IMG/VR virus record: IMGVR_UViG_3300050821_004348
Location: 1-55,656 of that record
Strand: one strand, 5' to 3'
Length of the DNA: 55,656 nucleotides
Source of the DNA: a virus
Part shown: positions 10,004-52,870 of the stretch, one piece after another
How the letters are laid out: each line of letters opens with the position of its first letter
Position numbering within the stretch: the stretch's first letter is position 1
Position numbers and translations under genes: made by a program
Notes under the pieces: model-generated
What the model was told of the DNA's origin: nothing
The model's database searches: none
What the model saw: the letters and a program-made list of their open reading frames with translations, nothing else

Positions 10004-10201
10004 TTATTCCTTCTCTATGGTGATGGTGTACTGCTCGCCAACTTCGTAAGAAGAACGTATCTCATTAGTTCTAATTACAAAACACCAGTCTCCATCACCG
10101 AGAATCTCCTCCAAGGCAACCATACAGGAAGCTTCTACACCATCCTCATCCGTTGCTGTGTTGGATACAACGGAAACGATTTTACATGATTTTTGAATCA
10201 T
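10004..10201 (-). CDS. uncharacterised 65-residue beta-rich protein
   Basis: A short, probably beta-stranded protein (KIVSVVSNTATDEDG ... WCFVIRTNEI ... YTITIEKE). ATGA overlap with the polymerase stop codon ties its translation to the polymerase gene. No family recognised. Confidence 0.45.
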   Translation of the reverse strand: MIQKSCKIVSVVSNTATDEDGVEASCMVALEEILGDGDWCFVIRTNEIRSSYEVGEQYTITIEKE

Positions 10202-11649
10202 ATTGGTTCACCCTTCTTTGTGCTCCATACCCCGCCCCTATTTATTATCGGTTTCTTGTCGTGCCAGTTTTGGCTACTCGCTTCCATTTCTATCACTAAT
10301 GGAGCAGCTATCCATCCCCAAAATTGCCTTACTTTTCGTGTCATTATCCTTTCACAAGCATCACACACTGCTTGAAATTCTTCCGGCACTACGTCTATCA
10401 ACATCGAATCATGGATTTGTGCAACTATCTTACTCTTCATCTCTTTCTTATTTAGCCACTTCTGTAGTTCTGTTAAGCACCATAGAAGAATATGAAAAGC
10501 ACTTCCTTGGGCAGGATAATTAGTGACAGCATTCTTTTGGTAGATTCCTTGGATGCGAAATCCAGTGGGGAGATCAAAATACCCTTGGGACTGATAAAGT
10601 TTCCACTGCTTTGTTCTCCAGGCGTCATAAACTGGGAAACGACGTCCCCAGAAGTCCTTTTCTACTTTGTAAACATGATATTCAAACGTTCCTGGTTGAG
10701 GAGAACCTTGAGGGTCACATTTCCCTAATTCTTTTATCCCTTTCTCATAGAGATGTTCTTTAAGAGACTTTCCATCTTTAGTCACTAATTTCGCAGTGTC
10801 AATTGCTTTCCATAAAGCAGGAGCACACTGGAAGTAACTGGAGCCGTAGAAAGAAGGAAAGACAAAACGATTCTTGCCATAATAACGGATGTCTTTGTAT
10901 TGGTCTTTTTCCCAATCCTTAAAATCTAAGATATAGAGTTCCTCCGACATATCCCTGTGCATATCCGTCGTCGGGTCACTTACATAGGACATAAGAGTCG
11001 GGTCTAAATTAATAGAGGCGTTGACTCGAACCTCCAAGATATTAAAATCTACTTCTAGCAAGTAGTTTCCGGCAGACGGAATGAATGCTCTGCGGATAAT
11101 CTTCCCCTGGAGTTTGTTTCTCAAGGGCATATTCTGGAAATTAGGAAGTTGTGCCGAGCCACGATAAGAACGTGCCCCACCTCTTTCATCGTCACCACTA
11201 ACTAGGTTGAAAGAAGGATGCAGATATCCATTATCGTCCGTTTCTCTTTCTATGCCTTTTAGATAGGTGCCTCTTACTTTTTCTAGTTTGGCGAGTTGGA
11301 GGTATTTGGAGATGAAAGGAAGGGGAACGGTCTTTAAGTGCCCTTCGTCGGCACTGGGTTTGCCGCCCTTTGTAAAGGCACTAGCAGGGTATCTAAGCCT
11401 GTTGAAAAGTAACTCGGCTAGTTGTGGTCGGCTGGTTAAATTTGCCTGCTCTTTGTATTCATTTTGCCACTTTCCCCATAACTCATCCTTTTTCAACTCT
11501 TCAACTATCTTTTTCTCTCTCTGAGATACCCACTTAGTCGCTTTCTCTAAATATTCTCTATCTACTTTAATTCCGTTGTTTTCAACTTGGGCTAGAGCCA
11601 GACTTCCCTCGTGAAAGAGACGAAGGGCATCTTTTCTAGTTGCCTGCAT
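10198..11649 (-). CDS. family A DNA polymerase, polymerase domain only (split gene)
   Basis: A 483-residue protein covering thumb, palm and fingers of DNA polymerase I. Motif A is LLEVDFNILEVRV (D201), motif B is RYYGKNRFVFPSFYG (R255, K259, Y268-G269) and motif C is QIHDSM (H413, D414). The first residues (DALRLFHEGSLALAQVENNGIKVD) match the point just after the exonuclease domain in ordinary fused enzymes. The exonuclease itself is in a separate gene at 12704-13963. The enzyme should be the phage replicative polymerase. AAAAGGATTACGA precedes the ATG, which overlaps the upstream small gene by 14 bp. Confidence 0.85.
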   Translation of the reverse strand: MQATRKDALRLFHEGSLALAQVENNGIKVDREYLEKATKWVSQREKKIVEELKKDELWGKWQNEYKEQANLTSRPQLAELLFNRLRYPASAFTKGGKPSADEGHLKTVPLPFISKYLQLAKLEKVRGTYLKGIERETDDNGYLHPSFNLVSGDDERGGARSYRGSAQLPNFQNMPLRNKLQGKIIRRAFIPSAGNYLLEVDFNILEVRVNASINLDPTLMSYVSDPTTDMHRDMSEELYILDFKDWEKDQYKDIRYYGKNRFVFPSFYGSSYFQCAPALWKAIDTAKLVTKDGKSLKEHLYEKGIKELGKCDPQGSPQPGTFEYHVYKVEKDFWGRRFPVYDAWRTKQWKLYQSQGYFDLPTGFRIQGIYQKNAVTNYPAQGSAFHILLWCLTELQKWLNKKEMKSKIVAQIHDSMLIDVVPEEFQAVCDACERIMTRKVRQFWGWIAAPLVIEMEASSQNWHDKKPIINRGGVWSTKKGEPI

Positions 11650-12469: not shown

Positions 12470-12714
12470 TTCTGTTTCCTTTTCCATTCTTCATATTGTA
12501 GATGAGCCTGCTCTTCTTCAGTTATACAGCGGATGCGGACTTCTTTGTGCGAGTATCCGTAGTCTCCGCCACCGAGGACTTCATAAGGCATACCTACCTT
12601 CCCCATCATGTCAATCATTACCAGTCTGTCTTTCCACTGCTTCTGTATATCCTGTAAGATTGATAGTAATTCACTAAGCATCATCCTCTTAGTCGCCATC
12701 TCTTTAATCTCCAT
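12466..12714 (-). CDS. uncharacterised 82-residue helical protein within the polymerase split
   Basis: A helical, basic protein (MEIKEMATKRMMLSELLSIL). GAGGTGG upstream supports the ATG at 12714, which overlaps the end of the UDG-exonuclease gene by 11 bp. An internal start at MATKRMM is possible. The HKEVRIRCITEEEQ segment resembles a short C-terminal phage motif but no family can be named. Confidence 0.45.
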   Translation of the reverse strand: MEIKEMATKRMMLSELLSILQDIQKQWKDRLVMIDMMGKVGMPYEVLGGGDYGYSHKEVRIRCITEEEQAHLQYEEWKRKQK

Positions 12715-13963
12715 CTAACCACCTCTCCAAATCTAAACCTAAATTCTTAGATTGCACTTTCGCTAATTTGAATTCGAGTAAAGAATCCATTGCACAATAA
12801 GAAAGAATCGACTCTAGGTTCGCCTCCCTTATCCTATTCCTTCCATACCCTCCACCATCCTTTGCCTTCAAATAAGGCTTGATACTATCATCATAACTCT
12901 GCTGTCCTAAAAGGACGAAGGATTGGAATTTGACGGAGGAAATCTCTGGTCTGTTATCTCCAATATGAGCCGCCTCACATACATCCCATATCCAGTTATT
13001 CACTGGTCGACCGAATCTCTCTAACACGAAGCGATTCTCGAACTTAGAATTTGCTCCTATCTTCGGTACTCCTGAGAAGAGGAACTCCTTCGTCGCCTCT
13101 ATCGTCTCGCCTATCCACGGATAGGCGAAAGTGACCAAGCCATTGGATAGGGAGCAAGAGAAGATATCCAACTTGTATCCGTTCTTCTGTTCTGGCTTCA
13201 ATCCTTCTGTTTCAAAGTCAAAAGCAGTGGGCTTATTCATACTTATGACTTCTCTAATCATATGGGCGGCTTGAGCAGGATAGAGAATCACCTTGCACTG
13301 CTGTTTCCAGTCGGGGACTTCTTTCCAAGGTCTTTCTATCCTCTTACAAGCCTCTTCTAAATGTTGATTGAAGTAAAGTTCTAAGATGGGGTCTAGTCTC
13401 CCTTTCCTGTCTTCACTCCTCTTAACGTGGGACGGATGGAAGGTTGGAGTTACCCAGGCGTTGATTTGTTGTGATGGAATCCTCCATCCCGCCCACCTAC
13501 TAATACTTCCAACTTTATCCTTCCATAACCAAGTCATCACGCTCTTTACAGCCGCATCACCTAACAGGATGATGAGCTTCGGTTTCAATTCTTGAATGTG
13601 GTTGATTACTTTTGGTCGGCAAAACGTGATTTCTCGTTCCGTGGGCTTTCTGTTCTTTGGAGGACGACATGAAAGTGAATTCGTTATCCAACAATCTTCT
13701 CTTAGGTCTATGCCTTGACGAGAGAGACAAGTTTGGAGGTATTGTCCTGCTTTACCGACGAAGGGACGATTCTGAGAATCCTCTGTCGCTCCACTGGCTT
13801 CACCGACGATGAGGATTTCTTTCTTGCCGTTGCCAGAGAGGGGCATCCGTGGGGAGAGGCAACCGAGGTCTAATTTGCAAGCGGCACACTGAGGGACGAG
13901 ACCAATGGGCTTCCTACTCGTAACTTCACTCGGGGTGAAGAAGGCTCTTCGTTCTTTGGGCAC
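12704..13963 (-). CDS. uracil-DNA glycosylase (family 4-like) fused to DnaQ-type 3'-5' exonuclease
   Basis: A 419-residue two-domain protein. Residues about 20-205 are a UDG: CAAC (C26, C29), GEASGATED (54-62), the NSLSCRPP block (C99), C115 and FHPS (H176). The four cysteines are spaced like the iron-sulfur ligands of family 4/5 UDGs. Residues about 225-410 are the proofreading exonuclease of a family A polymerase: Exo I DFETEG (249-254), Exo II NSKFEN (305-310) and Exo III YCAMD (389-393). It ends just where the polymerase domain would begin. It should remove uracil and proofread alongside the separate polymerase at 10198-11649. Confidence 0.85.
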   Translation of the reverse strand: MPKERRAFFTPSEVTSRKPIGLVPQCAACKLDLGCLSPRMPLSGNGKKEILIVGEASGATEDSQNRPFVGKAGQYLQTCLSRQGIDLREDCWITNSLSCRPPKNRKPTEREITFCRPKVINHIQELKPKLIILLGDAAVKSVMTWLWKDKVGSISRWAGWRIPSQQINAWVTPTFHPSHVKRSEDRKGRLDPILELYFNQHLEEACKRIERPWKEVPDWKQQCKVILYPAQAAHMIREVISMNKPTAFDFETEGLKPEQKNGYKLDIFSCSLSNGLVTFAYPWIGETIEATKEFLFSGVPKIGANSKFENRFVLERFGRPVNNWIWDVCEAAHIGDNRPEISSVKFQSFVLLGQQSYDDSIKPYLKAKDGGGYGRNRIREANLESILSYCAMDSLLEFKLAKVQSKNLGLDLERWLDGD

Positions 13964-14712: not shown

Positions 14713-15524
14713 TTATGCTGTCTTCGGTTCGTGTCCATAGTAAATGACGAAGGGACGATTGATGATAGTAGAAAAGACTGGCATATCTATAGGCACACAC
14801 TCCGTCCTCTCCACCATTAGATTGGGGTCACTCCTTGCCTCGTGTTTCTCTGGTAGTGTATCTAACTCTTCCGTTGTGAACTTACGAGCAGATTTCTTTG
14901 AATATAAGTTCCCCGTTTGAAGAAAGTAGGATAGTTATTCCAATTAATCTTCCTCTCCATAAGCATATCCAACATCTCACCAGTATGCTTGTTATGGAGT
15001 TCTTTGTGGGAATAGACACTTTGAGCAGCCATAGAAATACTATTCTTCGTCGCATCCCATTCCCTCCACAGAAAGCAGTTGGCTCCTTCTTCTAGTGTTG
15101 GAACGTTCCAGACACGAGCATCAAAGTGGGGGAGCTTTTCTTGGAGGGCACTCACACCCCTGTCAAAGTAAAATGGTAATTCACAAAAGAACAGAACCGA
15201 AGCCATCCCTGCTAAAACCGATTCCATCTTCTGGATGCGACCATTGAAGAAGATTTCACTTTTAGAATTATCACTATACCAAGTAAGAGTGATTTCATCA
15301 CTCTGGGTGTAGCCCATACAAGCATTCGTTTCCTTGACAAGATACTTAGTTAGTCTAATCATAGACATAGCAAATCGTTCGTCATAAGGACGATTCATAT
15401 CTTTGGTGAACTTAGAGAATGAGCGTCCATCCAATCTTGCCATTGCTGGAATGAGAGGAAGTAGCTTTCGTCCTGCTACTTCCATTTCATAAGCCTTCAC
15501 CCTATCCCCGAGAGCGTCATTCAT
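14713..15524 (-). CDS. tRNA-His guanylyltransferase (Thg1-like), with an apparent -1 frameshift
   Basis: A Thg1-family 3'-5' nucleotide-adding enzyme. MARLDGRSFSKFTKDM (D32) and TQSDEITLTW (D76, E77) carry the metal-binding residues, and FFNGRIQKMESVLA follows as in phage and bacterial members. Frame 0 stops at 14862 after RGTYIQR. The sequence KSARKFTTEELDTLPEKH then continues in the -1 frame to a TAA at 14713, with the family's usual C-terminal block. One extra A in the AAA at the junction would restore a 270-residue protein. It is either one missing base, a real frameshift, or frameshifting. The enzyme would add G-1 to tRNA-His or repair tRNA 5' ends. Confidence 0.8.
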
Positions 15525-17211: not shown

Positions 17212-17478
17212 CTAGAAGGACTCAAGGAGTCCTTCTTCCTCGTCGGGTTCTTCTACTTCTTTGGCTTTATTTATCTTTTCTTTCACATCTTTACTTGTCT
17301 TGCCCTTTTGGATAGGGACGTCTGTGACTTCTTCGCCTCTCGATTCTGCTAATCTCTTGAATCGACTGCTGGGGTTTTCATTCTGGCAGTGGATGAAGTA
17401 GGTGAACATGACTGTCGCATTGGGAATGACGTATTCGGGGAGACTGCGGTTCTCTTCACCACTATAGAAGATAATCAT
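17212..17478 (-). CDS. uncharacterised partner of the DpdA-like gene
   Basis: An 88-residue protein (MIIFYSGEENRSLPEYVIPN ... MFTYFIHC) whose start overlaps the DpdA-like stop as ATGA. I recall short proteins beginning with a similar YYSGGG...PE-VL...hML-Y segment next to DpdA-type genes in other phages, so a shared role in the modification pathway is plausible but unproven. C-terminal half is Lys/Glu-rich and likely disordered. Confidence 0.5.
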   Translation of the reverse strand: MIIFYSGEENRSLPEYVIPNATVMFTYFIHCQNENPSSRFKRLAESRGEEVTDVPIQKGKTSKDVKEKINKAKEVEEPDEEEGLLESF

Positions 17479-18365
17479 ATTACTCTGCTTTTCTTCTTAT
17501 CATTGGGCTTGAAAGCCCAGGGATACTTGGGAAGGGATTTTCTTAATTTCTCAAAGAAAAGAAGGTTGGCTAACTTTCGACACGAGTGGCTATTGATAAC
17601 ACCCTCGTTATTATCGTCACCCAGTGGCACTTCAATTTCTGTCAGCCATTCTAAGAGTATCTCCCTCGCCCCGTCTGAGAGTGTTCTAATGTGCTTATCC
17701 TGGTCACCAACTTTGGACTCATTGGAAACACTTATCATATAGGGTTGCGTGCGGAAGGAGAACTTTCCGTCTCTTTTATGAGGGACGAGGACATTCCCGT
17801 AGGCACCGACCTTCGTCCACGTTGCGGAATCAACGGATGTCCAAGGCCACCTCCACATCAAGTCAAACGCCGTCATCGCAAATCCGTGCGTCCTTACCAG
17901 TGGAAGATAATCATTGGAGGCGGGACAGAGGCGAGTGAAAAGAGCATCCCCCCAATCCAAATACATATTCTTCGTCACCCCCTGCCCCAGCCCTCCTATG
18001 CCTAGATAAGTGTATCCCGCCTCTAAGTGCTTATCTATCCACTCTGCACTTGCTCCATAGTGGATAACTGGGATAGGGTGGAGTCCGTGTTCATTCTCTA
18101 GATACTTTAGAACCTTCCAGGAACGCTCTGGATCGTAGATGACATCGATGTTGGCGTAGAAGTCAATGGACTTGGGGTAGGCTTTGATAAAGGAGGCGTA
18201 CCTATCGCAGTAGGCGTAGAACTCGGAGGAATCGTAATAGGCGTAGCCAGCTTTGTTCCCCATCTTTCCAACATAGATGTTCCACAAAGAATGCGCCCCG
18301 CTGTCAAGGAACACCAGTTTAAATTGAGGATCGGGTCGATTCTCTGCGGTAGGTGGAAGTGGCAT
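17475..18365 (-). CDS. dpdA: DpdA-like 7-deazaguanine DNA transglycosylase (TGT superfamily)
   Basis: A 296-residue protein with TGT-type active-site blocks. VFLDSGAHSLWN (D21) is the base-recognition Asp, and FYANIDVIYDPERSW follows. PVIHYGASAEW then YTYLGIGGLG gives the barrel strands, and HGFAMTAFDLM ... WTSVDSATW (D179) supplies the likely nucleophile. Phage DpdA enzymes exchange guanine in DNA for preQ0 or a derivative. Adjacent folE, queD, queE, queC and queF genes strongly support that role over tRNA modification. It overlaps the QueF gene by 47 bp. A GTG start nearer the DSG motif is possible. Confidence 0.75.
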   Translation of the reverse strand: MPLPPTAENRPDPQFKLVFLDSGAHSLWNIYVGKMGNKAGYAYYDSSEFYAYCDRYASFIKAYPKSIDFYANIDVIYDPERSWKVLKYLENEHGLHPIPVIHYGASAEWIDKHLEAGYTYLGIGGLGQGVTKNMYLDWGDALFTRLCPASNDYLPLVRTHGFAMTAFDLMWRWPWTSVDSATWTKVGAYGNVLVPHKRDGKFSFRTQPYMISVSNESKVGDQDKHIRTLSDGAREILLEWLTEIEVPLGDDNNEGVINSHSCRKLANLLFFEKLRKSLPKYPWAFKPNDKKKSRVI

Positions 18366-19758
18366 GAATGGACACTCCTCCTCTAGGGGTTTGGATGACT
18401 GTGACAGTGACTTCGTTAGGATGAATAGAGTCTACTACGTGTTGAAGTAAGTCGTGGGATAGTCTTTCACAGAAGACGCCTGTTTCTCGCAAACTCTGCA
18501 GTTTGAGTTTAAGGGACTTAGATTCAATACATCGTTCATCTGGCACATAGTCAATTTCTACTGAGTAGAAATCTGGTTGATTTGTAATCGGGCAATTGTG
18601 AACTATAATACCATTGGCGAAGAAGCATTCCGTATCTTCCACCTCCATATTGTAGACATCTGCTTTGCCTGCTGATTCTACAGAAATAACTTTATGATTC
18701 AAAGATGGTAAAGTAATCTTCTTTCTTAGACTTTTGGTTTCTTTGTCTGTTCTTACTTTCCCTCCTGCTTTCCTCACCCAATCACAGATAGACGTGGAAT
18801 GGACACCATAGTAGTCACAGAGTTCATATATAGTGTATCCCTTTTCATAATATCCTAAACATTCGGTATACACTTTTCTCTTATTAACGTGGTCAGCATT
18901 ACCGAGTAAAGATTCTCGTTGTGTTCTTTTTTTTACTAAATGACCTATCCTATTTATTATTGTTGAGACGTCACATTCATATTTTCGCCCTAAATCAGCA
19001 AAAGACGCCCCGTTTTCATATTGTATTACTAAATCATCAATGTTAAGAAATGCTTCATAGCCGTATTGTTCTAAACGATGATAAGAGGAATGCACACCCT
19101 CATGCAAGATTTCTAAATTAGATGGTGTATTATCATAGTGGTTGTGATTCTTATGATGTACATGCTCCTCATGTGATATTGATTCGCCGTAGACACATTC
19201 AGCTACTAAACGATGCCTCCCTTTGCCTTTTATTGTATCCCTTTGACGTTGGTGAGAAACCAACCTCATAGAAGGTTTTAGGTCTTTAGCTTGAATCCAA
19301 ATATACCAATGCCAAGAGGCTCTGCCTTCTTTAACTAGAAATAGGTGGTCTGGTGTGCAAGTGATTTCTTTCTCAACCCTCTTCCTTGGTTCCCCTTTCT
19401 TCGTTCTCCCTTGCAGTAAAGAATATTTAACTCGCACTACACCAACTTGGTCTCCAGTTTTTCTTACATTCGTAAATTTCTTGGCTACTGCTGTATTATC
19501 ATTCTGGTCAAAAGAAAAGACAACACCATCAAACCCTACAAGGTCCTTTATGGCTCTACCAAAAGGGTAAATCGTTTCATCAGTTGCCACATCTATCAAT
19601 GTATCTCCGTGGAGGCATCTTGCACTGCATTCATTGGAAATCATTTTGACGCGAGAGATGTGACCGGGACGAGGAAATGATTCCAAGAGTTCCGTCGGTT
19701 CTGTGACACCGGACTTACCGAGAAGGGTGAGGTCTTTCTTAAATTGTTCATCGTTCAT
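18319..19758 (-). CDS. queF: QueF-type 7-cyano-7-deazaguanine enzyme interrupted by an HNH intein
   Basis: A 479-residue precursor. Residues 1-47 and 389-479 join to a 138-residue QueF: LTLLGKSG, LLESFP, CPITNQPDF with the catalytic Cys and Asp, then ESKSLKLKLQSLR, VFCERLSHD and TPRGGVSIH. The QueF FHE motif reads FCE here, so the usual His is Cys. QueF reduces preQ0 to preQ1, while QueF-L relatives make archaeosine; the altered motif leaves the product open. Residues 48-388 are an intein inserted directly before the catalytic Cys. With the DpdA-like enzyme this predicts a 7-deazaguanine derivative in phage DNA. Confidence 0.8.
   Translation of the reverse strand: MNDEQFKKDLTLLGKSGVTEPTELLESFPRPGHISRVKMISNECSARCLHGDTLIDVATDETIYPFGRAIKDLVGFDGVVFSFDQNDNTAVAKKFTNVRKTGDQVGVVRVKYSLLQGRTKKGEPRKRVEKEITCTPDHLFLVKEGRASWHWYIWIQAKDLKPSMRLVSHQRQRDTIKGKGRHRLVAECVYGESISHEEHVHHKNHNHYDNTPSNLEILHEGVHSSYHRLEQYGYEAFLNIDDLVIQYENGASFADLGRKYECDVSTIINRIGHLVKKRTQRESLLGNADHVNKRKVYTECLGYYEKGYTIYELCDYYGVHSTSICDWVRKAGGKVRTDKETKSLRKKITLPSLNHKVISVESAGKADVYNMEVEDTECFFANGIIVHNCPITNQPDFYSVEIDYVPDERCIESKSLKLKLQSLRETGVFCERLSHDLLQHVVDSIHPNEVTVTVIQTPRGGVSIHATSTYRRESTRSSI
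18595..19617 (-). mobile_element. intein with HNH endonuclease inside QueF
   Basis: A 341-residue in-frame insertion with class 1 intein features. It begins CLHGDTLIDV (Cys1). Block B is ITCTPDHLFLV (TxxH) and the end is GIIVHN, followed by Cys+1. An HNH-type homing endonuclease sits in the middle: EEHVHHKNHNHYDNTPSNLE. Two helix-turn-helix-like segments follow (ASFADLGRKYECDVSTIINRI; YTIYELCDYYGVHSTSICDW), which probably bind the homing target. Cys+1 doubles as the QueF catalytic nucleophile, so the host enzyme is inactive until splicing is complete. Confidence 0.85.
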
Positions 19759-19762
19759 GGGT

Positions 19763-20644
19763 CTATCCTTTGATAAGATTGAAGAATTCTGCTCGACAGG
19801 AGGGTTCTTTCATAAACACCCCTGTGAGGCTGCTGGTCACTGCAACTATTCCAGGTTTTTGAATTCCACGACAGGACATACAAGAGTGCTGGCATTCAAT
19901 AACACAGGCACTCCCCTTGGGCTGCAAGTATTTATCGAGGGCATCCGTTATCTGCTCCGTTAATCTCTCTTGCACCTGGAGCCTACGGGCAAAGACATCA
20001 ACCAGACGTGACAACTTACTCAACCCAAGTATCTTCCCCTTGGGAATGTAGGCAACGTGAGCAATCCCCGAGCATTCTAACATATGGTGCTCACACGTGC
20101 TACTGAAGGGAATCCCTCTCAATAACACCATCTCATTACAAGCTCCTTCTGTGAAGCACTTGAAGACGTCTTCAACATTCTGTTGATAGCCAGAAAAGAG
20201 TTCTTTATAAGAACGAGCTACCCGAGCAGGCGTCTCCAGAAGACCTTCCCTTGTCGGGTCATCTCCAATAAATTGGATAATTCGGCGGATATTATCTTCA
20301 ATTCCTGCCCCTCCTACTGGGTTCTCCCTCTCCCACGGCATAGAAACCCACTTCCCTTGCCAGTGTTCATCCTTATCTAACTTGTCCACAAGTGCATAGA
20401 AGGGACGTTGAGGGTAACGACTACACCAATCTGTCATCGTCGCCCCAGAGTCAATGATGTCATCTACAAAAACATCTGCCTGTGCTGGATTTTCAACTAC
20501 TAAGGAAGACGGATGACGAGCGTGGCAGATGAGGGCTGCTTTGATGCCACCATTGGGGATGCCGTAGATGTTCTTCCCTGTGAGGGGAAGGCTCTTCGCT
20601 CGCATATAAAGTTCGTCGTAAGAGAGGGAGATGACTTGATTCAT
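19763..20644 (-). CDS. folE: phosphoribosyltransferase-like domain fused to GTP cyclohydrolase I
   Basis: A 293-residue fusion. Residues 1-105 look like a small PRTase: GIPNGGI, then VFVDDIIDSGATM (59-70), the PRPP-binding loop. Residues about 115-293 are GTP cyclohydrolase I: CEHHML (C184, H186, H187), GLSKLSRLVDVFARRLQVQERLTEQI and CQHSCMSCRG (C258), which supply zinc and substrate residues. FolE makes dihydroneopterin triphosphate, the first step to preQ0. The role of the PRTase-like domain is unknown; it might be degenerate or act on a purine in the same pathway. ATGA overlap with queC. Confidence 0.8.
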   Translation of the reverse strand: MNQVISLSYDELYMRAKSLPLTGKNIYGIPNGGIKAALICHARHPSSLVVENPAQADVFVDDIIDSGATMTDWCSRYPQRPFYALVDKLDKDEHWQGKWVSMPWERENPVGGAGIEDNIRRIIQFIGDDPTREGLLETPARVARSYKELFSGYQQNVEDVFKCFTEGACNEMVLLRGIPFSSTCEHHMLECSGIAHVAYIPKGKILGLSKLSRLVDVFARRLQVQERLTEQITDALDKYLQPKGSACVIECQHSCMSCRGIQKPGIVAVTSSLTGVFMKEPSCRAEFFNLIKG

Positions 20645-21354
20645 TCTGGTTTCTTAGGAAGAGGTCCAGTGTATTGGTAAGGGATGGGGTCTTCGATTCC
20701 AAGCAGTTGGAAAGATTCTCTGCGTTCGCAGCACGCTCCGCAACGCCCACAAGAAACCTCATTATCGGTATAACAAGTCCGCGTGTACTGATAAGGAGGA
20801 GGGGCAGTGAGTGCGAATCCTGCTTTAAGGATGCCTAGTTTATTCGTATACAGGAACGGACACTCTAATGTGATACCAGGCTCATTGTCTTCCCACTTGG
20901 TTGCTTTTCCAATGGCATTCTGCATAGCTTCAATAAAGGCTGGACGGCAGTCTGGGTAGCACGCAAAATCTCCAGCATGAGCACCGAGCCACACTTCACT
21001 ACATCCCTCACTTACTGCTATCCCAGTAAGAATAGACAGGAAAATCATATTCCTATTTGGCACGACTGTCTGACGCATATTCTCTTCTTCATAATGCCCC
21101 TCTGGGATAGGTCTCTCGTCCGTTGCGATGAGAGCAGATTTGAAACTGCCCATTACAGCAGATAAGTCCAGCAAGCGGAAGGGAACACTATAGTAGTCGG
21201 CTACCTTCTTGGCAGCGATATTCTCCCATCGTCCGTGACGGCTTCCGTAGTAGAAGCCGACGGCTAGGACTTCTTTGGCTCCGTGCTTGTCAACAGCAAC
21301 AGCGAGGGCAGTGGAAGAATCCATTCCACCGCTTAACGCGCACACACATTTCAT
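20641..21354 (-). CDS. queC: QueC, 7-cyano-7-deazaguanine synthase
   Basis: A 237-residue N-type ATP pyrophosphatase. It starts MKCVCALSGGMDSSTALAV with the SGGMDSS P-loop (residues 8-14), and VPNRNMIFLSI and WLGAHAGDFACYPDCRPAF follow. The C-terminal zinc site is SCGRCGACCERRESF. It converts 7-carboxy-7-deazaguanine to preQ0 with ATP and ammonia. The start at 21354 has GGAGG and overlaps the upstream stop codon; the ATG at 21366 is too early for that SD. Between folE and queE in the modification cassette. Confidence 0.9.
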   Translation of the reverse strand: MKCVCALSGGMDSSTALAVAVDKHGAKEVLAVGFYYGSRHGRWENIAAKKVADYYSVPFRLLDLSAVMGSFKSALIATDERPIPEGHYEEENMRQTVVPNRNMIFLSILTGIAVSEGCSEVWLGAHAGDFACYPDCRPAFIEAMQNAIGKATKWEDNEPGITLECPFLYTNKLGILKAGFALTAPPPYQYTRTCYTDNEVSCGRCGACCERRESFQLLGIEDPIPYQYTGPLPKKPE

Positions 21355-21617
21355 GATATCCTCCATTCATTCGCAAAGATGATATCTTTCATTGACGATA
21401 GGGTTGTTGTATCTGGGATTAGGAACTTGCCATCTGAAGACCAGTTTGTCGTATCCTTATTCTTTTCGTAGTATTTAGTCAAAGCCTCTTTGGGAGTCGT
21501 TCCCATCTCTTTTCCTAGAACCATATGCGTCCACCAGCAGACGCCCCACTGGTTTCGAAGGAGTATCCAATACTCCTTCGAGTGCCACCACTTTATCAGT
21601 TTCTGCCAAAGAGACAT
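21351..21617 (-). CDS. uncharacterised Trp-rich 88-residue protein
   Basis: A small protein with an unusually Trp-rich N-terminus (MSLWQKLIKWWHSKEYWILL ... WGVCWWTHM). This may be a membrane-surface helix. C-terminal part polar. It lies inside the modification cassette, overlapping the start of queC, but no link to that pathway is visible. Confidence 0.45.
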   Translation of the reverse strand: MSLWQKLIKWWHSKEYWILLRNQWGVCWWTHMVLGKEMGTTPKEALTKYYEKNKDTTNWSSDGKFLIPDTTTLSSMKDIIFANEWRIS

Positions 21618-21633
21618 TCTTATTACCTTTCCT

Positions 21634-22212
21634 TTATCCTTTCAATCCTTGGAGGACTTGATAAGCCAAATCGTAAACTTCTTCCTGGCTAAGAATCGCA
21701 GAAGTAAGTGCCCAACCAGTCAAGTTTGTCTCTCGTCTCACCGACTTGGCGAGCCTGTATAACTCATTATTCACCTCCTCTTCTGTCCTTCCCAAAAGAG
21801 CAGCCAAGTATCCGACATCAAGGACAGAATACTTGTTCTCTGGGTTCAAGCACAAGGACATAATGTGATAATCCCTTTTAGTAAAGACCCGTCCCTTCCG
21901 CCAAAGATGTTGGTCTGGGAAGAATAGGACGGAAGGACCTTGAGAGTTCGGGTCACAATACTGGACGGCAATCTTCCATATCTTCGTCCTCAAGGCAACC
22001 CAAGTCCTTCCCAACAGATGCACCATTCCCAACTTTCCACTCTCATAGCAAAGGTCGCCAAGATAAGACATAAAGAGGAGATTAACATCCCTACTCGTCC
22101 ACTTCTTTCTATCAAGGACTAAGGGTCCTCTTTCTTCTTGGGATAGTCGTTTCTTGGTGTTGTGGACGCTATTCAAGTGGAGGCGGCGATCCGTTTTTCG
22201 TACTTTACTCAT
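21634..22212 (-). CDS. possible SANT/Myb-like DNA-binding protein
   Basis: A 192-residue basic protein starting MSKVRKTDRRLHL at 22212, its ATG overlapping the upstream stop. The stretch KKWTSRDVNLLFMSYLGDLC ... LLGRTWVALRTKIWKI resembles a SANT/Myb repeat, and a second weaker one (FTKRDYHIMSLCLNPENKYS ... AALLGRTEEEVNNELYRLAK) follows. Two repeated helix-turn-helix units suggest sequence-specific DNA binding. It lies between QueE and QueC but is not a known pathway member. Confidence 0.5.
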   Translation of the reverse strand: MSKVRKTDRRLHLNSVHNTKKRLSQEERGPLVLDRKKWTSRDVNLLFMSYLGDLCYESGKLGMVHLLGRTWVALRTKIWKIAVQYCDPNSQGPSVLFFPDQHLWRKGRVFTKRDYHIMSLCLNPENKYSVLDVGYLAALLGRTEEEVNNELYRLAKSVRRETNLTGWALTSAILSQEEVYDLAYQVLQGLKG

Positions 22213-22423
22213 TTTCATCCATACCCTTTGATGAAATGGTTTGAACGTATTGATACTTTCCCGAATCTTGCTTATCATAGATTCTTACATAGCCATCTCC
22301 CATAAAGCCACAATAGATATGTGGAGGGTACTCTTCGATTCCTTTGGGCATTTTATCAATTACGACGGAGACTAGTTTCCCATCGTATGGACCTCCGTTT
22401 AGAACCGCACAGAAGAGATTCAT
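22205..22423 (-). CDS. small phage protein (LNGGPYDGK type)
   Basis: A 72-residue protein: CAVLNGGPYDGKLVSVVID, IYCGFMGDGYVRIYDKQ. Proteins with an N-terminal NGGP-DG motif and a beta-rich body occur widely in phages without known function. Inside the modification cassette. Confidence 0.5.
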   Translation of the reverse strand: MNLFCAVLNGGPYDGKLVSVVIDKMPKGIEEYPPHIYCGFMGDGYVRIYDKQDSGKYQYVQTISSKGMDENE

Positions 22424-22426
22424 ACC

Positions 22427-22618
22427 TCACCAGTATTTGGAGATGAAGTGAATGGCAACCCAGATGACACCGATGAGGAGACTTAAGTAGCACAGAAGGG
22501 AGAGAAGCCAGATGACGAAGGCTGCCATTGCTCCTTTCTTAACTCCTCCTTGTACTTGCTTAAAGAATTCTCTGTGTTCCTGTTGCATCTTCTTAAAGTT
22601 ATCGTTGAAAGAATCCAT
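22427..22618 (-). CDS. 63-residue single-pass membrane protein
   Basis: An N-terminal amphipathic, charged helix (MDSFNDNFKKMQQEHREFF) is followed by a long hydrophobic segment, residues about 30-57 (MAAFVIWLLSLLCYLSLLIG), that forms one or two transmembrane helices. It could be mistaken for a holin, but no lysis genes are nearby. Function unknown. Confidence 0.5.
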   Translation of the reverse strand: MDSFNDNFKKMQQEHREFFKQVQGGVKKGAMAAFVIWLLSLLCYLSLLIGVIWVAIHFISKYW

Positions 22619-22626
22619 TTTGTCTC

Positions 22627-23364
22627 CTACTCTAAACCAACGAGTTTATGGATTTGTATGGTGAGTCGGTAATCAGTGTGCTTCAAGCACGCATCTGCGG
22701 CTGCTTTGAGGTGGAGTTTATTCCGTTCCTCATCCTGCTCGTCCAAAGGTTGAATCCAAACCTGTCCTTTGAATCCTTTCCAAGGGCGAGCAACCCTAAC
22801 ACCCGCACCTAAACTATCGGTGGGAAGCCCGTCCTCTGGGTCTATCTTATCATAGGCAACGATATATTTCAAGTGGTCTATGAAAGGTTTCAGCCTTTCA
22901 TTTATAGAACCTGTTTTGGGGGAGCAGACAAGGGTGAAGGTATAGTGAGGTGTTCTGGGGTCTGACTGAGGGACGTATTCTGTATTGTCCGGCACGAAAG
23001 GAAATAGAGTGCCATTCGTCTCAATTTGGATTTTGTAACCCAGGTCTTTGGCTAGTCTATCCATTAGAGGAAAGATATTCTGTCGCAGGGGTTCCCCTCC
23101 TGTCAATACCACCAATCCAGGATTGGGCATGAGAGATTGAACTTTAGCAACAATCTCCGGAACGGAGAGGAGGTGACGACCAGTGGTATAGTCGGAATCA
23201 CAGGCGGGGCACGCTAAATCGCATCCTGCTGTACGAATAAACACCGCTGGAGTACCAGCGAAGGGTCCCTCGCCTTGAAGGGTATACCAGACGTGAACGA
23301 CGTCTAAGTTTCCGTCGGGGTCGTTTACGGGCTTCTCAATTGGTTGCATATTCAAGGGAATCAT
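22627..23364 (-). CDS. queE: QueE, 7-carboxy-7-deazaguanine synthase (radical SAM)
   Basis: A 245-residue radical SAM enzyme. LQGEGPFAGTPAVFIRTAGC then CDLACPACDSDYT carry the CxxxCxxC iron-sulfur motif (C48, C52, C55) with the N-terminal extension typical of QueE. VVLTGGEPLRQN and IQIETNGT are the SAM-binding strands, and SPKTGSINE and WIQPLDEQDEE the C-terminal blocks. It turns 6-carboxytetrahydropterin into 7-carboxy-7-deazaguanine. AAGGAGTAAAA precedes the ATG, and the gene follows queD by 2 bp. Confidence 0.9.
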   Translation of the reverse strand: MIPLNMQPIEKPVNDPDGNLDVVHVWYTLQGEGPFAGTPAVFIRTAGCDLACPACDSDYTTGRHLLSVPEIVAKVQSLMPNPGLVVLTGGEPLRQNIFPLMDRLAKDLGYKIQIETNGTLFPFVPDNTEYVPQSDPRTPHYTFTLVCSPKTGSINERLKPFIDHLKYIVAYDKIDPEDGLPTDSLGAGVRVARPWKGFKGQVWIQPLDEQDEERNKLHLKAAADACLKHTDYRLTIQIHKLVGLE

Positions 23365-23366
23365 TT

Positions 23367-23807
23367 TTACTCCTTAGTAAAATCACTCCAACAAGATGGA
23401 GTTTCATAAATACGAACGTTGACGATTTTGTAAGGTTTGAGTTTTTCTACTATTGCGAAGTGAAGTTCTCTTGCCATCTCTTCCGCAGTAGGATTAACTC
23501 CATTGATATGCGTCCCTTGATAGCATCCCATTACATATGGAGGAATTTCTTCTGTGTCGTGTAGGAACTTGAGTAGAGGGTCTTTGTAATTGAGAAGAAT
23601 ATTGTGATCCCAATAGGTATCGATGAATCCTTTCACCACGTCCTTCAAATCAGCAAAATCTATTACCATCCCTAATTTATTCAAAGTTCCATAATTGACA
23701 GTGACTTCGGCTATTCCATGATGTCCGTGAACATTCTTACACTTGCCGCCGTGCCCCAGAACCCGATGTCCGTAATCAAATTCAAATCTTTTGGTGACGG
23801 AGAACAT
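23367..23807 (-). CDS. queD: QueD, 6-carboxytetrahydropterin synthase
   Basis: A 146-residue member of the PTPS/QueD family. FEFDYGHRVLGHGGKCKNVHGHHG holds the three zinc histidines (H14, H27, H29) and the catalytic Cys (C23). GMVIDFADLKDVVKGFIDTYWDHNILL is the signature following block, and NPTAEEMARELHF and NVRIYETPSCWSDF end the enzyme. It converts the FolE product to 6-carboxytetrahydropterin. First gene of the modification cassette in the transcription direction, directly after the terminator at 23821-23860. Confidence 0.9.
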   Translation of the reverse strand: MFSVTKRFEFDYGHRVLGHGGKCKNVHGHHGIAEVTVNYGTLNKLGMVIDFADLKDVVKGFIDTYWDHNILLNYKDPLLKFLHDTEEIPPYVMGCYQGTHINGVNPTAEEMARELHFAIVEKLKPYKIVNVRIYETPSCWSDFTKE

Positions 23808-29278: not shown

Positions 29279-29351
29279 GCCGGACGACGGGACTCGAACC
29301 CGCACACCAGGATTCACAATCCTGTACTCTAGCCAGTTGAGCTACGCCCGG
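29279..29351 (-). tRNA. tRNA-His(GTG) without an encoded G-1
   Basis: Acceptor stem CCGGGCG/CGTCCGG (one G-T wobble), anticodon arm CAGGA-TTGTGAA-TCCTG with GTG, T arm GCGGG-TTCGAGT-CCCGT, discriminator C73. The base before position 1 is T, so the G-1 normally required by histidyl-tRNA synthetase is not in the gene. The Thg1-like enzyme at 14713-15524 could add it. Confidence 0.9.
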
Positions 29352-33951: not shown

Positions 33952-34387
33952 TCCTATTCTCCTCTTCCTCTAGCACTTTGACAGGGTTAATGGCACGGAT
34001 GGCGGTTCCTAAACTAGGATTACTACAGCAGCCAATCGCCTCCGCTGCCGCCTTTAGTCCTATCCGCACGCCGTATAATCGGGCTTCGCGTATACTGGCT
34101 TGCAATCGATGGTACTCTTCAAGGTTACCATTTGCGGGACCCTCATTTCTTTCCTTCCTCTTTCTATTCTTTTCTCTACAAAGTTCAAGCATAATGGACA
34201 ACGCCTTCTTGGGTTGGTCTTCTACTTCCTTGGCTAGTCTATAAGCTTCCTCTTCCAATTCATCCCACTCCTGTTCATCCATAGTGTCTATAATCGGTGC
34301 TAGAATGGGATTAGTACAGAAAAGACAGAGGAGAATCTCTACGATTGTTTCACTTAGGAATTTCCCTTCGTGATTCCATTCAATCAT
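33944..34387 (-). CDS. uncharacterised helical protein containing both duplicated modules
   Basis: A 147-residue protein. Its N-terminal half matches the gene at 33290-33490 and its C-terminal half matches 33748-33951, so this gene looks like the source or fusion of those two. Middle CREKNRKRKERNEG is basic. Its start overlaps the VWA gene stop. Confidence 0.5.
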   Translation of the reverse strand: MIEWNHEGKFLSETIVEILLCLFCTNPILAPIIDTMDEQEWDELEEEAYRLAKEVEDQPKKALSIMLELCREKNRKRKERNEGPANGNLEEYHRLQASIREARLYGVRIGLKAAAEAIGCCSNPSLGTAIRAINPVKVLEEEENRNE

Positions 34388-35636
34388 CTCCGCCTCCTTT
34401 CATCTGTATCACATCACCCCAAGAACAAGGTTGTTCGCCATTTGGAGTAAGAACCCAGAGGACAGGCACACTCGGCTTTGTCTCTGGTGCAGGACCGAAC
34501 CCATCCGTGAAAAAGATAACCAAATCTGGTTTCCACTTCTGCAAAAACTCTTTCTCCAAAGGAGGACGGAAGTCCGTTCCCCCTCGTCCGTGAAGCTCCA
34601 ACAATCCTTTATATGGATAGACTCCGTGAATCCTTTCGTCACACTCTACTATCAATACTTCCTTTTCACTCTTACTTAAGACCCTTAATTCTCCATCTAT
34701 CATCTCCAAGAAACTATCACTCATTGAGCCAGAGGTATCAATCACACACATCACCCTCGGCTTCACTCCAATCCTGGCTTTGCCTGGAATAATTCCAACC
34801 AAATCTGGGAACCTTCTGTTGGGACGATGATAGATGGGACGGACGGACGTCGCTCTTCCCACATACTTCCTCAACTTGCTCGTCCAATCTATCTCTCCAC
34901 TTATCTTGTGCTGGAGGCGATAGAACTCGCTGCCAGGACAATTTCCCTGACTCTTAATCGCCTCCTCTATCTCCTTGGGCATATCCTCCTTGGGCATATC
35001 ATCAATCGCCTCCTCTATCAACTTGCCAACGGCTTTCTTAATCGCCTCTTCAATATCCTCTGCCCAGACACTTCCTCCACAATCTCCTTCTATCCCTTCC
35101 CAGACATCGTGGTCATCCAAACTAATGACTATCTTCGTCTGTGGGATGGTGTCCTTCAATCTTTCATACCTTTGAAGTGTGCTCTCCATCTCAGGTAATT
35201 CTGGGTATGCATCTAAAAAGATAGCCTTTTCAAAGATTACCTTTCCATCGTCATCCTTTATGTTCTCAGGCAAAGGCTCTTTGACGAACTCATTCACAGT
35301 CACTTCTTGGGCGATGACAAGAGCATTACGATTAGGGAAGTCCTTTCGTGTCATAGACAGATGACCGAAGAGGACATGATGGACTTCGTGGAGGAGGACA
35401 CCGACGAGTTCGTTTAGTTTCAACCTCATCACAAAGTCGGGGTTATAGAGGAGGAGGACGATGAAACCCTCTTCCTCGGCTTTTCCTCTACCCACGCAGA
35501 CGGCGAGGGTTTTGATAGACTCTTTCTTCGTCAACTCCATATGGTGGACGATGGCGGCGTGAAATCTGTATCGCTGCATAAGTCTGTCACGGGCGAGGAA
35601 CATCTTCTTCAAGGCTCGTTGGTCTAAAGTGGACAT
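34380..35636 (-). CDS. VWA-domain protein with HEVHH metallopeptidase-like N-terminus
   Basis: A 418-residue protein. N-terminal half has LLHEVHHVLFGHLSMTR (HEVHH at 83-87), typical of the DUF2201 putative metallopeptidase domain often joined to VWA. The C-terminal half is a von Willebrand A domain with MIDAS residues DTSGSMSD (about residue 295), a GGTD turn and FFTDGFG. It is co-encoded with the AAA+ ATPase at 35853-37217, the usual MoxR-VWA pairing, where the ATPase remodels and the VWA domain binds substrate or metal. Target unknown. Confidence 0.75.
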   Translation of the reverse strand: MSTLDQRALKKMFLARDRLMQRYRFHAAIVHHMELTKKESIKTLAVCVGRGKAEEEGFIVLLLYNPDFVMRLKLNELVGVLLHEVHHVLFGHLSMTRKDFPNRNALVIAQEVTVNEFVKEPLPENIKDDDGKVIFEKAIFLDAYPELPEMESTLQRYERLKDTIPQTKIVISLDDHDVWEGIEGDCGGSVWAEDIEEAIKKAVGKLIEEAIDDMPKEDMPKEIEEAIKSQGNCPGSEFYRLQHKISGEIDWTSKLRKYVGRATSVRPIYHRPNRRFPDLVGIIPGKARIGVKPRVMCVIDTSGSMSDSFLEMIDGELRVLSKSEKEVLIVECDERIHGVYPYKGLLELHGRGGTDFRPPLEKEFLQKWKPDLVIFFTDGFGPAPETKPSVPVLWVLTPNGEQPCSWGDVIQMKGGGDD

Positions 35637-35839
35637 TCTTTCTCCTCATCATACTTACAAGTGCAGTCCAAATGTGATTGGGACTTTAGAAAGCCGCAGT
35701 GTTGGCAGTATCCGTCTGAAACCTTTCTAATCACATCTAGTCTATTTTCTGGGTCAAGGTATTCCAAACTAAGATTCAATGTCTGAGCGATGGCAAAGGC
35801 TCGATTCCTCCAGGCTTCTTTTATTTCTCTCTCATCCAT
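35624..35839 (-). CDS. small protein with CxxC zinc-like motif
   Basis: 71 residues: MDEREIKEAWRNRAFAIAQT ... DGYCQHCGFLKSQSHLDCTC. The C-terminal Cys/His group (CQHC, HLDCTC) looks like a zinc ribbon. Lies between the two halves of the AAA+/VWA pair, so may belong to that complex. Confidence 0.45.
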   Translation of the reverse strand: MDEREIKEAWRNRAFAIAQTLNLSLEYLDPENRLDVIRKVSDGYCQHCGFLKSQSHLDCTCKYDEEKECPL

Positions 35840-35852
35840 ACTTCACCTCCTT

Positions 35853-37217
35853 TCAAGTAATCGTATGGGTGATGCCGCCGGGAAGAGGTGGTTTCATCAC
35901 CTTCCCAGTCATGGTCACCATCTTCTTCAATGCCTCCATCTCATTTTCATCTACATCTGGTAGCACCATCTTGTCCTTGGCAGCCTTCCCATACTTCGGT
36001 ACTTCGTACCTCAAGTCAACCATGAACTTGGCAATCATAGAAGCAGTATCAGGCGGTATATCTGTGAGTAACGCTTTCAAGGCGAACCAAGTGTTCTTCT
36101 TCACTTCTCTGTAGTTATCTCCATCCTGCAAGTAAATCATCGCCTCATGGGCTATGTTGGCGAGAAGGTCTGTCTTTCCTTCCTTCGTCCAACTCCTTAT
36201 CTGTCCTTGATACGTTCCATAATCTGCAAGAATGTCTGGTACTTTTGGAAGAAGAAGACCCGATTTAAGATGGATAGAGAAGGTCACACACCTCTCCTTT
36301 CCTACGACACCTTGAATCGCGGCTTGGAGTGTTCCTCTATCCAAGTTCTCCTTCTTATACGCTTCCATCAAAGAACTTACCATACTCCAATCTCTGGGCG
36401 AGGTATCTGCGAATATCTGTGCATCACTCCCCACATAAGAACGCACCTCTTCACAGACGTGATTATTTTTACTCCATCCAAGCCATTCTGCCCTGTCTGG
36501 GATTACTTGCACTTTGACGAAGCGGGAGAGGAGTGCCTTATCTAAATCATTCACTTCGTATCCTTCTTCACTGGGGTTAATCGCAGCACAAGGAAGCCAA
36601 CCTGGAGGAAGGACGTAGTCATTCAAGCATCGTGCTGTGAGGAGTTGGAGGCAAGGTGCTCGCATATAGGAAGGACATCGGTTCAACTCCTCAAAGGCTA
36701 GAATACCTTTCCCCTCTGTGGGGAGGAAGGATGGAGGGAGGAACTTCGTCACCCCTCCATCAAGTTTCGGCATTCCAACTAGGTCTGGTGGTTCCATTAG
36801 AGACAGGTCTCGGCAGATATAGGAGATGCCGAGGGCTTTTGCCGCTTGAGCGACGAGGTCGCTCTTGCCAACCCCGTGCCGTCCTATGAGCAGACAAGGC
36901 TTATCTGCGGCATAACAGAGTTTGATGAAATCTACGAGGGGCTTTCCGGCTTTCACTTGTTTCATAGTTTTATCCTTTGGGATGAATGCGTTCATCCAGT
37001 CTTTGAAAGAGTAAGTTGGGGGACGGGGGACGATTCTGCTACCGACAACAGATACTTTAGAAGAGTGTCCTGTAGGCATAGGAGGAAATAGAACCTTTGG
37101 ATAGGACACTCTCCCTGCTGGTGGTAGAGGAATCACCTTCCCACCAGCAGCTATCAATGCTGCCTTCTGCTTTAGCAAATCTATCAGGCTTTGTTGGAGA
37201 GCATCTGGTCTATCCAT
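35853..37217 (-). CDS. MoxR-type AAA+ ATPase
   Basis: A 454-residue ATPase from MDRPDALQQSLIDLLKQKAA at 37217, its ATG 1 bp after the preceding stop. Walker A GRHGVGKS (112-119), DLSLMEPPDLVGMPKL, LAFEELNRCPSYM (Walker B with an EE pair), CAAINPSEEGYEV and a sensor region. The C-terminal portion is helical. The presence of a VWA protein beside it identifies it as a MoxR-type chaperone. The earlier in-frame start at 37412 would overlap the DUF7352-like gene and is unlikely. Confidence 0.75.
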   Translation of the reverse strand: MDRPDALQQSLIDLLKQKAALIAAGGKVIPLPPAGRVSYPKVLFPPMPTGHSSKVSVVGSRIVPRPPTYSFKDWMNAFIPKDKTMKQVKAGKPLVDFIKLCYAADKPCLLIGRHGVGKSDLVAQAAKALGISYICRDLSLMEPPDLVGMPKLDGGVTKFLPPSFLPTEGKGILAFEELNRCPSYMRAPCLQLLTARCLNDYVLPPGWLPCAAINPSEEGYEVNDLDKALLSRFVKVQVIPDRAEWLGWSKNNHVCEEVRSYVGSDAQIFADTSPRDWSMVSSLMEAYKKENLDRGTLQAAIQGVVGKERCVTFSIHLKSGLLLPKVPDILADYGTYQGQIRSWTKEGKTDLLANIAHEAMIYLQDGDNYREVKKNTWFALKALLTDIPPDTASMIAKFMVDLRYEVPKYGKAAKDKMVLPDVDENEMEALKKMVTMTGKVMKPPLPGGITHTIT

Positions 37218-37218
37218 T

Positions 37219-37488
37219 TCATGCCACTTCAAACAGGTGGAAGACCAAGTCTCCTCCGTACATCTGGACAGAGCCGATGTAGTTCCCTTCCATTCCAGGA
37301 TGACCAGTTCCAAACCAACGAAATCTTCGTATTCCTTTTGGGGCTTCGGTATCAATCCAAGCCCAGATGCAGGGAGTTTCTTTCTGCATCTGCACACAGA
37401 GAATTTGGGCACAGGAAGGGATTTCTACTTCTAAATAATCGTCAATGGGAACTGGGAACTTCCAAATCCGCCAATTAGGATTGCTCAT
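37219..37488 (-). CDS. small phage protein (DUF7352-like)
   Basis: 89 residues beginning IWKFPVPIDDYLEVEIPSCA with ILCVQMQKE ... WAWIDTEAP ... FGTGHPGMEG ... YGGDLVFHLFEVA. The pattern KFPL-I-D ... IL-VQ ... GTGHP ... LVFHVFE is a common small phage family of unknown role. TAA-free 1-bp gap to the AAA+ ATPase. Confidence 0.55.
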   Translation of the reverse strand: MSNPNWRIWKFPVPIDDYLEVEIPSCAQILCVQMQKETPCIWAWIDTEAPKGIRRFRWFGTGHPGMEGNYIGSVQMYGGDLVFHLFEVA

Positions 37489-52041: not shown

Positions 52042-52408
52042 TTCCCTTCTCCTTCTTAAAGGCTTCTTTCAAAAGCTCGTGTGTCATCCTATCTGCCTCT
52101 TCATCTGCCTTGGCAACAATCTCTGGGTCGGCGTAATATAATCCACCGAAGCCAGAGACAGACCAACCAATCAACTGGGCGAATTGATTCCAGTCATCTT
52201 GGTTGAATGGCATAGACATAAGTTCATTTAATCCCATTCCGTGTCCACGACTATAGTCGTATAGAGCACGGACGATGGCGTTCTCCTTGAAACGGATGAC
52301 ATTATCCATCCACACCAAAGGTTGGATTGGATGTTTCATCTTCTCACTCCTTTCTGGGATTCCGTAAAGCTCCCCAAAAAATATAGTTTTGATTTCATTC
52401 CTATTCAT
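52028..52408 (-). CDS. small phage protein (MKHPIQPL type)
   Basis: Two in-frame starts have good SDs: 52408 and 52339 (MKHPIQPLVWMDNVIRFKEN). The segment HPIQPL ... RFKENAIVRALYDYSRGHG ... DWNQFAQLIGWSVSGFGGLY matches a phage protein family I recall with that start, favouring 52339, which gives 103 residues. Charged C-terminus. Function unknown. Confidence 0.55.
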   Translation of the reverse strand: MNRNEIKTIFFGELYGIPERSEKMKHPIQPLVWMDNVIRFKENAIVRALYDYSRGHGMGLNELMSMPFNQDDWNQFAQLIGWSVSGFGGLYYADPEIVAKADEEADRMTHELLKEAFKKEKGNGTR

Positions 52409-52616
52409 TTTTACTCCTTTCCTTTTCCTCCCAATGTCCTTGGGGCACCCAAGTAGGAATCAGTGTAAAGCTTCCATCCCCAGTCGACACTGGCGTCATT
52501 ATTAGGATTGGAGGGTCTGCGACATACCTGTGCGTCCGCTTGAACTCCTTGTCCTCCTTTGATTCAGAACAACCTACTCCAATCAACAAAACCCCAAGAA
52601 TTAACAACTTCTTCAT
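52401..52616 (-). CDS. small lipoprotein
   Basis: 71 residues with signal peptide MKKLLILGVLLIGVGCSESK; the lipobox LIGVGC predicts lipidation at the Cys. The remainder is charged and Pro-rich. It might be an o-spanin-like lysis component or an exclusion lipoprotein, but no lysis genes adjoin. Function unknown. Confidence 0.55.
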   Translation of the reverse strand: MKKLLILGVLLIGVGCSESKEDKEFKRTHRYVADPPILIMTPVSTGDGSFTLIPTWVPQGHWEEKERSKNE

Positions 52617-52640
52617 CTTCCACTCTTCTTTCCAGTTTCC

Positions 52641-52853
52641 TTAAATACCATCGCCATCGCAGTTCTCTATGTATAATCCACGCAGACGTCCAAGTTCTAT
52701 CAATGCCATTGGCAGTGGGGTTCCTTCTTCCCATTCAAACCACGCTCCACTAGGTCCAAAGGACAGGTTCAATCCTTCCTTAAAGGCTGCTGGGGAATGA
52801 AGGAGTTTGACTAATTCATCTTCAATTGGTGTGATTCTGTATTTCTTAGCCAT
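52641..52853 (-). CDS. uncharacterised 70-residue protein
   Basis: MAKKYRITPIEDELVKLLHS ... WFEWEEGTPLPMALIELGRL: alpha/beta. No family recognised. Between the lipoprotein and AAA+ genes. Confidence 0.45.
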   Translation of the reverse strand: MAKKYRITPIEDELVKLLHSPAAFKEGLNLSFGPSGAWFEWEEGTPLPMALIELGRLRGLYIENCDGDGI

Positions 52854-52870
52854 CTTTCACTCTCCCTTTT

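Follow-up and report, generated by a model that had tools for sequence, protein, structure and literature searches.

A predicted homing intein directly before the catalytic cysteine of QueF in a viral 7-deazaguanine cassette

Gene content of the cassette

The window analysed here is the complete IMG/VR virus record IMGVR_UViG_3300050821_004348 (55,656 bases, possibly a fragment), and the system in question is a predicted 7-deazaguanine DNA-modification cassette of six genes on its minus strand. The genes lie at 17475–23807 in the transcription order queD, queE, queC, folE, queF and dpdA, and queF is interrupted by an intein (Table 1). A first-pass annotation, made from the sequence alone, had placed queD, queE, queC, folE, queF and a DpdA-like gene in one block, and profile searches supported all six. 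The limits it gave, 17212–23807, held at the upper end; the start at 17212 belongs to a separate open reading frame (ORF) of 88 amino acids without a family match. Its statement that the residues of FolE, QueD, QueE and QueC are intact was borne out by motifs read directly in the sequences: SGGMDS and CGRCGAC in QueC, CDLACPAC in QueE, CKNVHGHH in QueD, and CEHH and HSCMSC in FolE. It had also taken queF and folE as plain genes, assigning both families correctly and overlooking the intein in the first and a domain fusion in the second.

QueC scored 158.7 bits against the NCBIfam model TIGR00364 (cut-off 150.3). Among the small ORFs between queE and queC, those of 214 and 88 amino acids gave no family match at a convincing E-value in profile searches. 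No preQ1 riboswitch was found at the Rfam gathering score, and PADLOC returned QueC itself and weak cross-matches, with otherwise no match to a defence system.

Table 1. Position and supporting matches of the cassette genes and their domains (aa, amino acids).
Feature	Position	Strand	Evidence or remark
queD (6-carboxytetrahydropterin synthase), 146 aa	23367-23807	-	Pfam PTPS 1.7e-30; PHROG 2389 QueD 3.2e-28
queE (7-carboxy-7-deazaguanine synthase, radical SAM), 245 aa	22627-23364	-	PHROG 2076 QueE 1.7e-46; CxxxCxxC present
Four small ORFs (63, 72, 214, 88 aa) between queE and queC	21351-22618	-	function not assigned
queC (preQ0 synthase), 241 aa	20641-21366	-	Pfam QueC 6.1e-51; PHROG 1.2e-61
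folE ORF, 293 aa, PRTase-FolE fusion	19763-20644	-	FolE Pfam 7.2e-69
N-terminal PRTase-like domain of folE ORF, residues 1 to about 113	20306-20644	-	PRPP-type motif VFVDDIIDSGAT
folE domain (GTP cyclohydrolase I), fusion residues 114-293	19763-20305	-	TIGR00063 219 bits, cut-off 181.6
queF ORF, 479 aa, two QueF halves around the intein	18319-19758	-	QueF Pfam 1.1e-16
queF N-extein, 47 aa	19618-19758	-	aligns, with C-extein, to B. subtilis QueF 4f8b
Intein, 341 aa, Cys48-Asn388	18595-19617	-	Pfam Intein_splicing 3.8e-10; TIGR01443, TIGR01445
HNH_3 homing-endonuclease module in intein	19078-19221	-	Pfam HNH_3 3.6e-6
Stretch with two helix-turn-helix-like modules in intein	18769-19011	-	modules at 19011-18949 and 18852-18769
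queF C-extein, 91 aa + stop	18319-18594	-	+1 Cys codon 18592-18594
QueF motif ESKSLKLK	18502-18525	-	in C-extein
QueF Glu97 equivalent	18466-18468	-	in C-extein
dpdA (DNA 7-deazaguanine transglycosylase), 296 aa	17475-18365	-	PHROG 887 9.3e-34

The QueF intein

A single queF reading frame gave matches to the QueF, Intein_splicing and HNH_3 families and, weakly, to helix-turn-helix families. The intein begins with CLHGDT and finishes with IVHN, the next residue being Cys389, and the residues of class 1 splicing are present: C48 as Cys1, TPDH at 135–138 as block B, H387–N388 at the end and C389 at the +1 position. The first helix-turn-helix module was recognised by eye and the second gave weak matches to HTH_23 and HTH_Tnp_1; helix-turn-helix matches were also obtained in members of the intein family, and the modules probably serve to recognise the DNA target. 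The GC content of the intein is 38.1%, compared to 44.6% for the exteins. An assembly chimera as the source of the insertion was ruled out by the 341 in-frame open codons and by six homologues inserted at the same codon.

When the intein was removed in silico, the resulting QueF of 138 amino acids aligned continuously across the junction with Bacillus subtilis QueF (PDB id. 4f8b), and Cys389, the +1 residue of the intein, aligned to the catalytic Cys55. Against the NCBIfam preQ1-synthase equivalog TIGR03139 (cut-off 86.9) the spliced sequence scored 90.4 bits, the unspliced sequence 78.6. The residues that define QueF are Cys55, Asp62, Glu78 and Glu97 (PMC5372742), and their equivalents in the same alignment are C389, D396, E412 and E431. 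The motif ESKSLKLK fits the consensus E(S/L)K(S/A)hK(L/Y)(Y/F/W) at seven of its eight positions. The protein is without a "backdoor" cysteine at position 53 or 99, the protector of Cys55 in most unimodular QueFs, and a cysteine at position 96 adjoins Glu97 (window 18466–18471). Since queF is interrupted exactly at the catalytic cysteine, the enzyme is probably active only once the intein has excised itself.

An AlphaFold model of the interrupted protein, obtained from six sequences only, had a mean pLDDT of 67.6 and a pTM of 0.46. Residues 48–388 of this moderate-confidence model form a HINT fold (NpuDnaB intein, Z 14.0), and the intein fold matched the NpuDnaB, Mtu RecA and DnaE inteins with Z 13–14 over about 140 residues. 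The T-fold of QueF was assembled from both halves, giving Z 14.2 with the QueF-like protein QueF-L (5jyx) and Z 13.7 with QueF (4f8b).

Distribution and mobility of the intein

A search of viral contigs with the pattern His-Asn|Cys-Pro-x-Thr-x-Gln-Pro-Asp revealed an intein in the same position on five more distinct contigs (L007, L008, L010, L011 and L012), the allele of L008 recurring on a further contig (L009). One more, L098, was added by an intein-alignment search, giving six further alleles, all from metagenomic phage; the pattern had missed it, its junction probably lying at the edge of the stored stretch, and the allele counts are lower bounds. All six have Cys1, the terminal His-Asn and the +1 cysteine at the identical site. 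The seven inteins are 328–341 amino acids long, with 32–64% pairwise identity among the six compared, and HNH_3 and Intein_splicing matched all five members scanned. FolE, QueC and DpdA matches surround queF on L007, L008, L012 and L098; on the short stretch of L011 QueC was matched, and on the available stretch of L010 QueD was the only match.

A QueF alignment was used to retrieve 79 other queF loci, all of which have an empty site (EFTSL|CPKTGQPD or similar); this set was ranked by similarity to intact QueF and is no measure of intein frequency. In a QueF tree of 89 rows, which took in the six carriers then known, these carriers were scattered; their distribution took six changes, of which well-supported branches forced no fewer than four. 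The closest extein found was intein-free for L008, L010, L011, L012 and L098, and between L011 and L012 the exteins were 58% identical, the inteins 32%. In approximately unbiased tests the inteins rejected the extein topology (p=3e-8) and the exteins rejected the intein topology (p=0.001). The scattered carriers and the mutually rejecting trees indicate that the intein spread laterally among phage queF genes, the predicted route being HNH-driven homing.

Outside queF, full-length inteins of the same superfamily reached at most 34% identity, with higher values over short stretches only; the host genes read included terminases, DnaB-like helicases, PolA and a glycosyltransferase, and no close copy of the QueF intein was found in any other gene. 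The terminase inteins of Brochothrix phage BL3 and Lactobacillus phage CL2 likewise have a HINT splicing domain and Cys1, CL2 also an HNH module, and were about 28–34% identical over the matched part to a member of the QueF-intein family, but they are inserted in terminase and not in queF. Searches of 50,697 phage records revealed no QueF split by an intein. A pattern scan of genome contigs returned two chance matches and no QueF intein; His-Asn was required before the cysteine, so absence from bacteria is not proven. When the scan was made without the histidine, it gave, besides the known alleles, two contigs with a longer QueF (ORF of 272 amino acids, SNCP), which were read as intein-free.

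The DpdA transglycosylase

The protein at 17475–18365, called DpdA-like in the first-pass annotation, falls within the tRNA-guanine transglycosylase (TGT)/DpdA group by its match to PHROG 887 (queuine tRNA-ribosyltransferase), supported by PHROG 7068 (4.9e-13), and by its fold. It gave no meaningful TGT match in Pfam or NCBIfam and no match at E<=5 when its sequence was compared with the PDB. Over most of its length it aligned with a TGT-like protein of Edwardsiella phage ZHS at 35.6% identity. The fold match derives from a second aligner, VIA-align, which gave Z 10.0 with the DNA preQ0 insertase DpdA (7ui4; root-mean-square deviation 4.8, 207 residues); the other matches it listed were TGTs at Z about 10. 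Among 48 phage sequences Asp74, His102, His160 and Asp179 were invariant and Asp21 nearly so; Asp21 and Asp179 may be the TGT catalytic aspartates.

The start of dpdA (18365) lies within queF, giving an overlap of 47 nucleotides, and the ribosome-binding-site-like stretch AGAGGAGGAG stands just upstream of it. Single-sequence queries of viral contigs with DpdA or spliced QueF gave nothing usable; alignment queries worked, and in most phage loci so retrieved dpdA was close to queF. Two contigs contain a single ORF with both DpdA and QueF matches (L036:4888-6453 and L040:4864-6447, plus strand), apparently natural DpdA-QueF fusions, which supports a shared pathway.

The phosphoribosyltransferase-FolE fusion

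The folE ORF carries in front of its GTP cyclohydrolase domain a phosphoribosyltransferase (PRTase)-like domain with a phosphoribosyl pyrophosphate (PRPP)-type motif, weakly matched by PHROG 8995 (phosphoribosyl transferase, 1e-3). A PRTase domain, fused to folE or encoded as a separate ORF, was present in 16 viral queF loci. The same two-domain FolE, 47–52% identical, was found in phages of Variovorax, Stenotrophomonas, Pseudomonas and Vibrio, including VPv64, Quinobequin-P09 and VpKK5, several of them also with a dpdA match; in those records it is annotated simply as GTP cyclohydrolase, and no intein-bearing queF was found in them. The papers found do not discuss this architecture. Its recurrence among 7-deazaguanine phages suggests a guanine-salvage step, not yet described, that is coupled to base exchange: the guanine freed by DpdA would be converted by a guanine PRTase to guanosine monophosphate and on to guanosine triphosphate (GTP), the substrate of FolE. 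An alternative is that the PRTase acts on preQ0 or preQ1.

Discussion

It is likely that this phage carries a 7-deazaguanine cassette in which QueF is activated by the splicing of a laterally homing intein. FolE, QueD, QueE and QueC would convert GTP to preQ0 (7-cyano-7-deazaguanine), which QueF would reduce to preQ1 (7-aminomethyl-7-deazaguanine); the "one further conversion" of the first-pass annotation is thus kept as a prediction and sharpened to this step. DpdA would then exchange guanine in DNA for a 7-deazaguanine, mainly as the deoxynucleoside dPreQ1, conferring restriction resistance. QueF would be made as an inactive precursor with the class 1 intein directly before its catalytic cysteine, and splicing would use that cysteine as the +1 nucleophile and yield the active enzyme. 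The HNH-bearing intein appears to have moved laterally between the queF genes of phages, at this single site.

The reading as a DNA-modification cassette, already proposed in the first pass, is supported by phages with the same genes. Streptococcus phage Dp-1 likewise has queF, queC, queD, queE, folE and dpdA in one cluster, but its queF is without an intein, its cassette contains queT in addition and its gene order is different. Mycobacterium phage Funsized has the same six genes with QueF and DpdA adjacent, and its QueF groups with that of the window on the tree, both branches being long; its queF is also without an intein, and its FolE gene of 579 nucleotides is too short for the PRTase domain. 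Because the gene set matches those of Funsized and Dp-1, whose DNA contains dPreQ1, dPreQ1 is the best prediction for the DNA of this phage. The measurements of dPreQ1 by Hutinet et al. concern two phages: Dp-1, with both QueF and DpdA, and HVTV-1, with QueF (PMC6884629).

Several observations weigh against this reading. QueD scored 79.1 against an NCBIfam cut-off of 89.25, and QueE also fell below its curated cut-off, although its PHROG match was strong. With Foldseek by itself, the DpdA model (mean pLDDT 76) had no match at E<=0.001. In QueF, His96 is replaced by cysteine, the final motif position is lysine and not Tyr, Phe or Trp, and the confidence of the QueF-intein model is low. Sequence also distinguishes phage QueF poorly from QueF-L (PMC6884629), and 2'-deoxyarchaeosine (dG+) is therefore possible in place of dPreQ1. 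The phage enzyme might then be an amidinotransferase of the QueF-like kind or a mixed enzyme, with dG+ in the DNA, or dPreQ0 (the deoxynucleoside of preQ0) before QueF matures. The lysine in the motif would fit such an enzyme, as would QueF-L being the closest fold match of the model, tied with QueF, and the traces of dG+ in HVTV-1 (PMC6884629). However, seven of the eight positions of the NADPH-binding motif are retained, the spliced protein exceeds the preQ1-synthase cut-off, and the Dp-1 and HVTV-1 proteins, from phages that contain dPreQ1, were both formerly called QueF-L (PMC6884629). We regard this alternative as unlikely, and a QueF that forms preQ1 as the better description.

It is less likely still that the intein no longer splices. 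QueF would then be dead, the pathway would end at preQ0, and DpdA would insert preQ0 to give dPreQ0 DNA of the kind that occurs naturally in CAjan and Rosebush (PMC6884629). Homing elements can decay, and splicing here is a prediction from the residues; every splicing residue is nevertheless present, and the exteins keep the equivalents of Cys55, Asp62, Glu78 and Glu97, whose persistence would be unexpected in a dead gene. That the cassette serves queuosine (Q) in host or phage tRNA is very improbable: queDEC, folE and queF are also genes of that pathway and the phage has a gene for tRNA-His, which could be a Q tRNA, but the transglycosylase clusters with DpdA-type proteins of phages, its structural match to DpdA equals that to TGT, and the gene arrangement is that of phages with measured DNA modification.

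With regard to its cassette this is one more phage of the known 7-deazaguanine group, and the QueF intein is the new part. No paper discussing a QueF with an intein was found in the literature outside subscription papers and intein databases, the single paper in which both terms occur dealing with another topic, and the insertion site in QueF seems to be undescribed. Inteins generally tend to occupy conserved active sites, and a +1 residue that is the catalytic cysteine of the host protein fits this preference. A mobile intein has targeted a DNA-modification enzyme at its catalytic cysteine codon in at least seven divergent phages, so that one gene of the predicted protection system of the phage itself now houses a homing element and the modification pathway would be hostage to protein splicing. 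The arrangement offers a testable system in which the +1 nucleophile of an intein doubles as the covalent catalyst of the host enzyme. Redox-dependent splicing is conceivable because reduced forms are needed of both Cys1 and the catalytic cysteine of QueF, but there is only a slight chance that splicing is conditional, for example in this way, and acts as a post-translational switch for the timing or occurrence of the conversion of dPreQ0 to dPreQ1.

Other features of the record

The ORFs of recognised function in the window are replication, metabolism and tRNA genes on the minus strand. No virion genes were recognised among the window ORFs inspected, which makes it probable that the record covers only part of a larger phage genome. 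The gene for the tRNA-His guanylyltransferase Thg1 lies at 14862–15524 (minus strand; PHROG 4717, 3.8e-79) and that for tRNA-His at 29279–29351 (minus strand). A uracil-DNA glycosylase superfamily domain opens an ORF of 419 amino acids at 12704–13963 (minus strand), and close to it a separate ORF at 10198–11649 (minus strand) encodes a family A DNA polymerase domain. ORFs for AAA-type ATPases stand near those for VWA-type proteins at two places, 34380–37412 and 50587–54019 (minus strand). A second intein, of the LAGLIDADG type, is situated in the Walker A motif of an SNF2-type helicase ORF at 40602–43016 (minus strand); given its Ala start, Thr at +1 and Cys in block F, it looks by eye like a class 3 intein.

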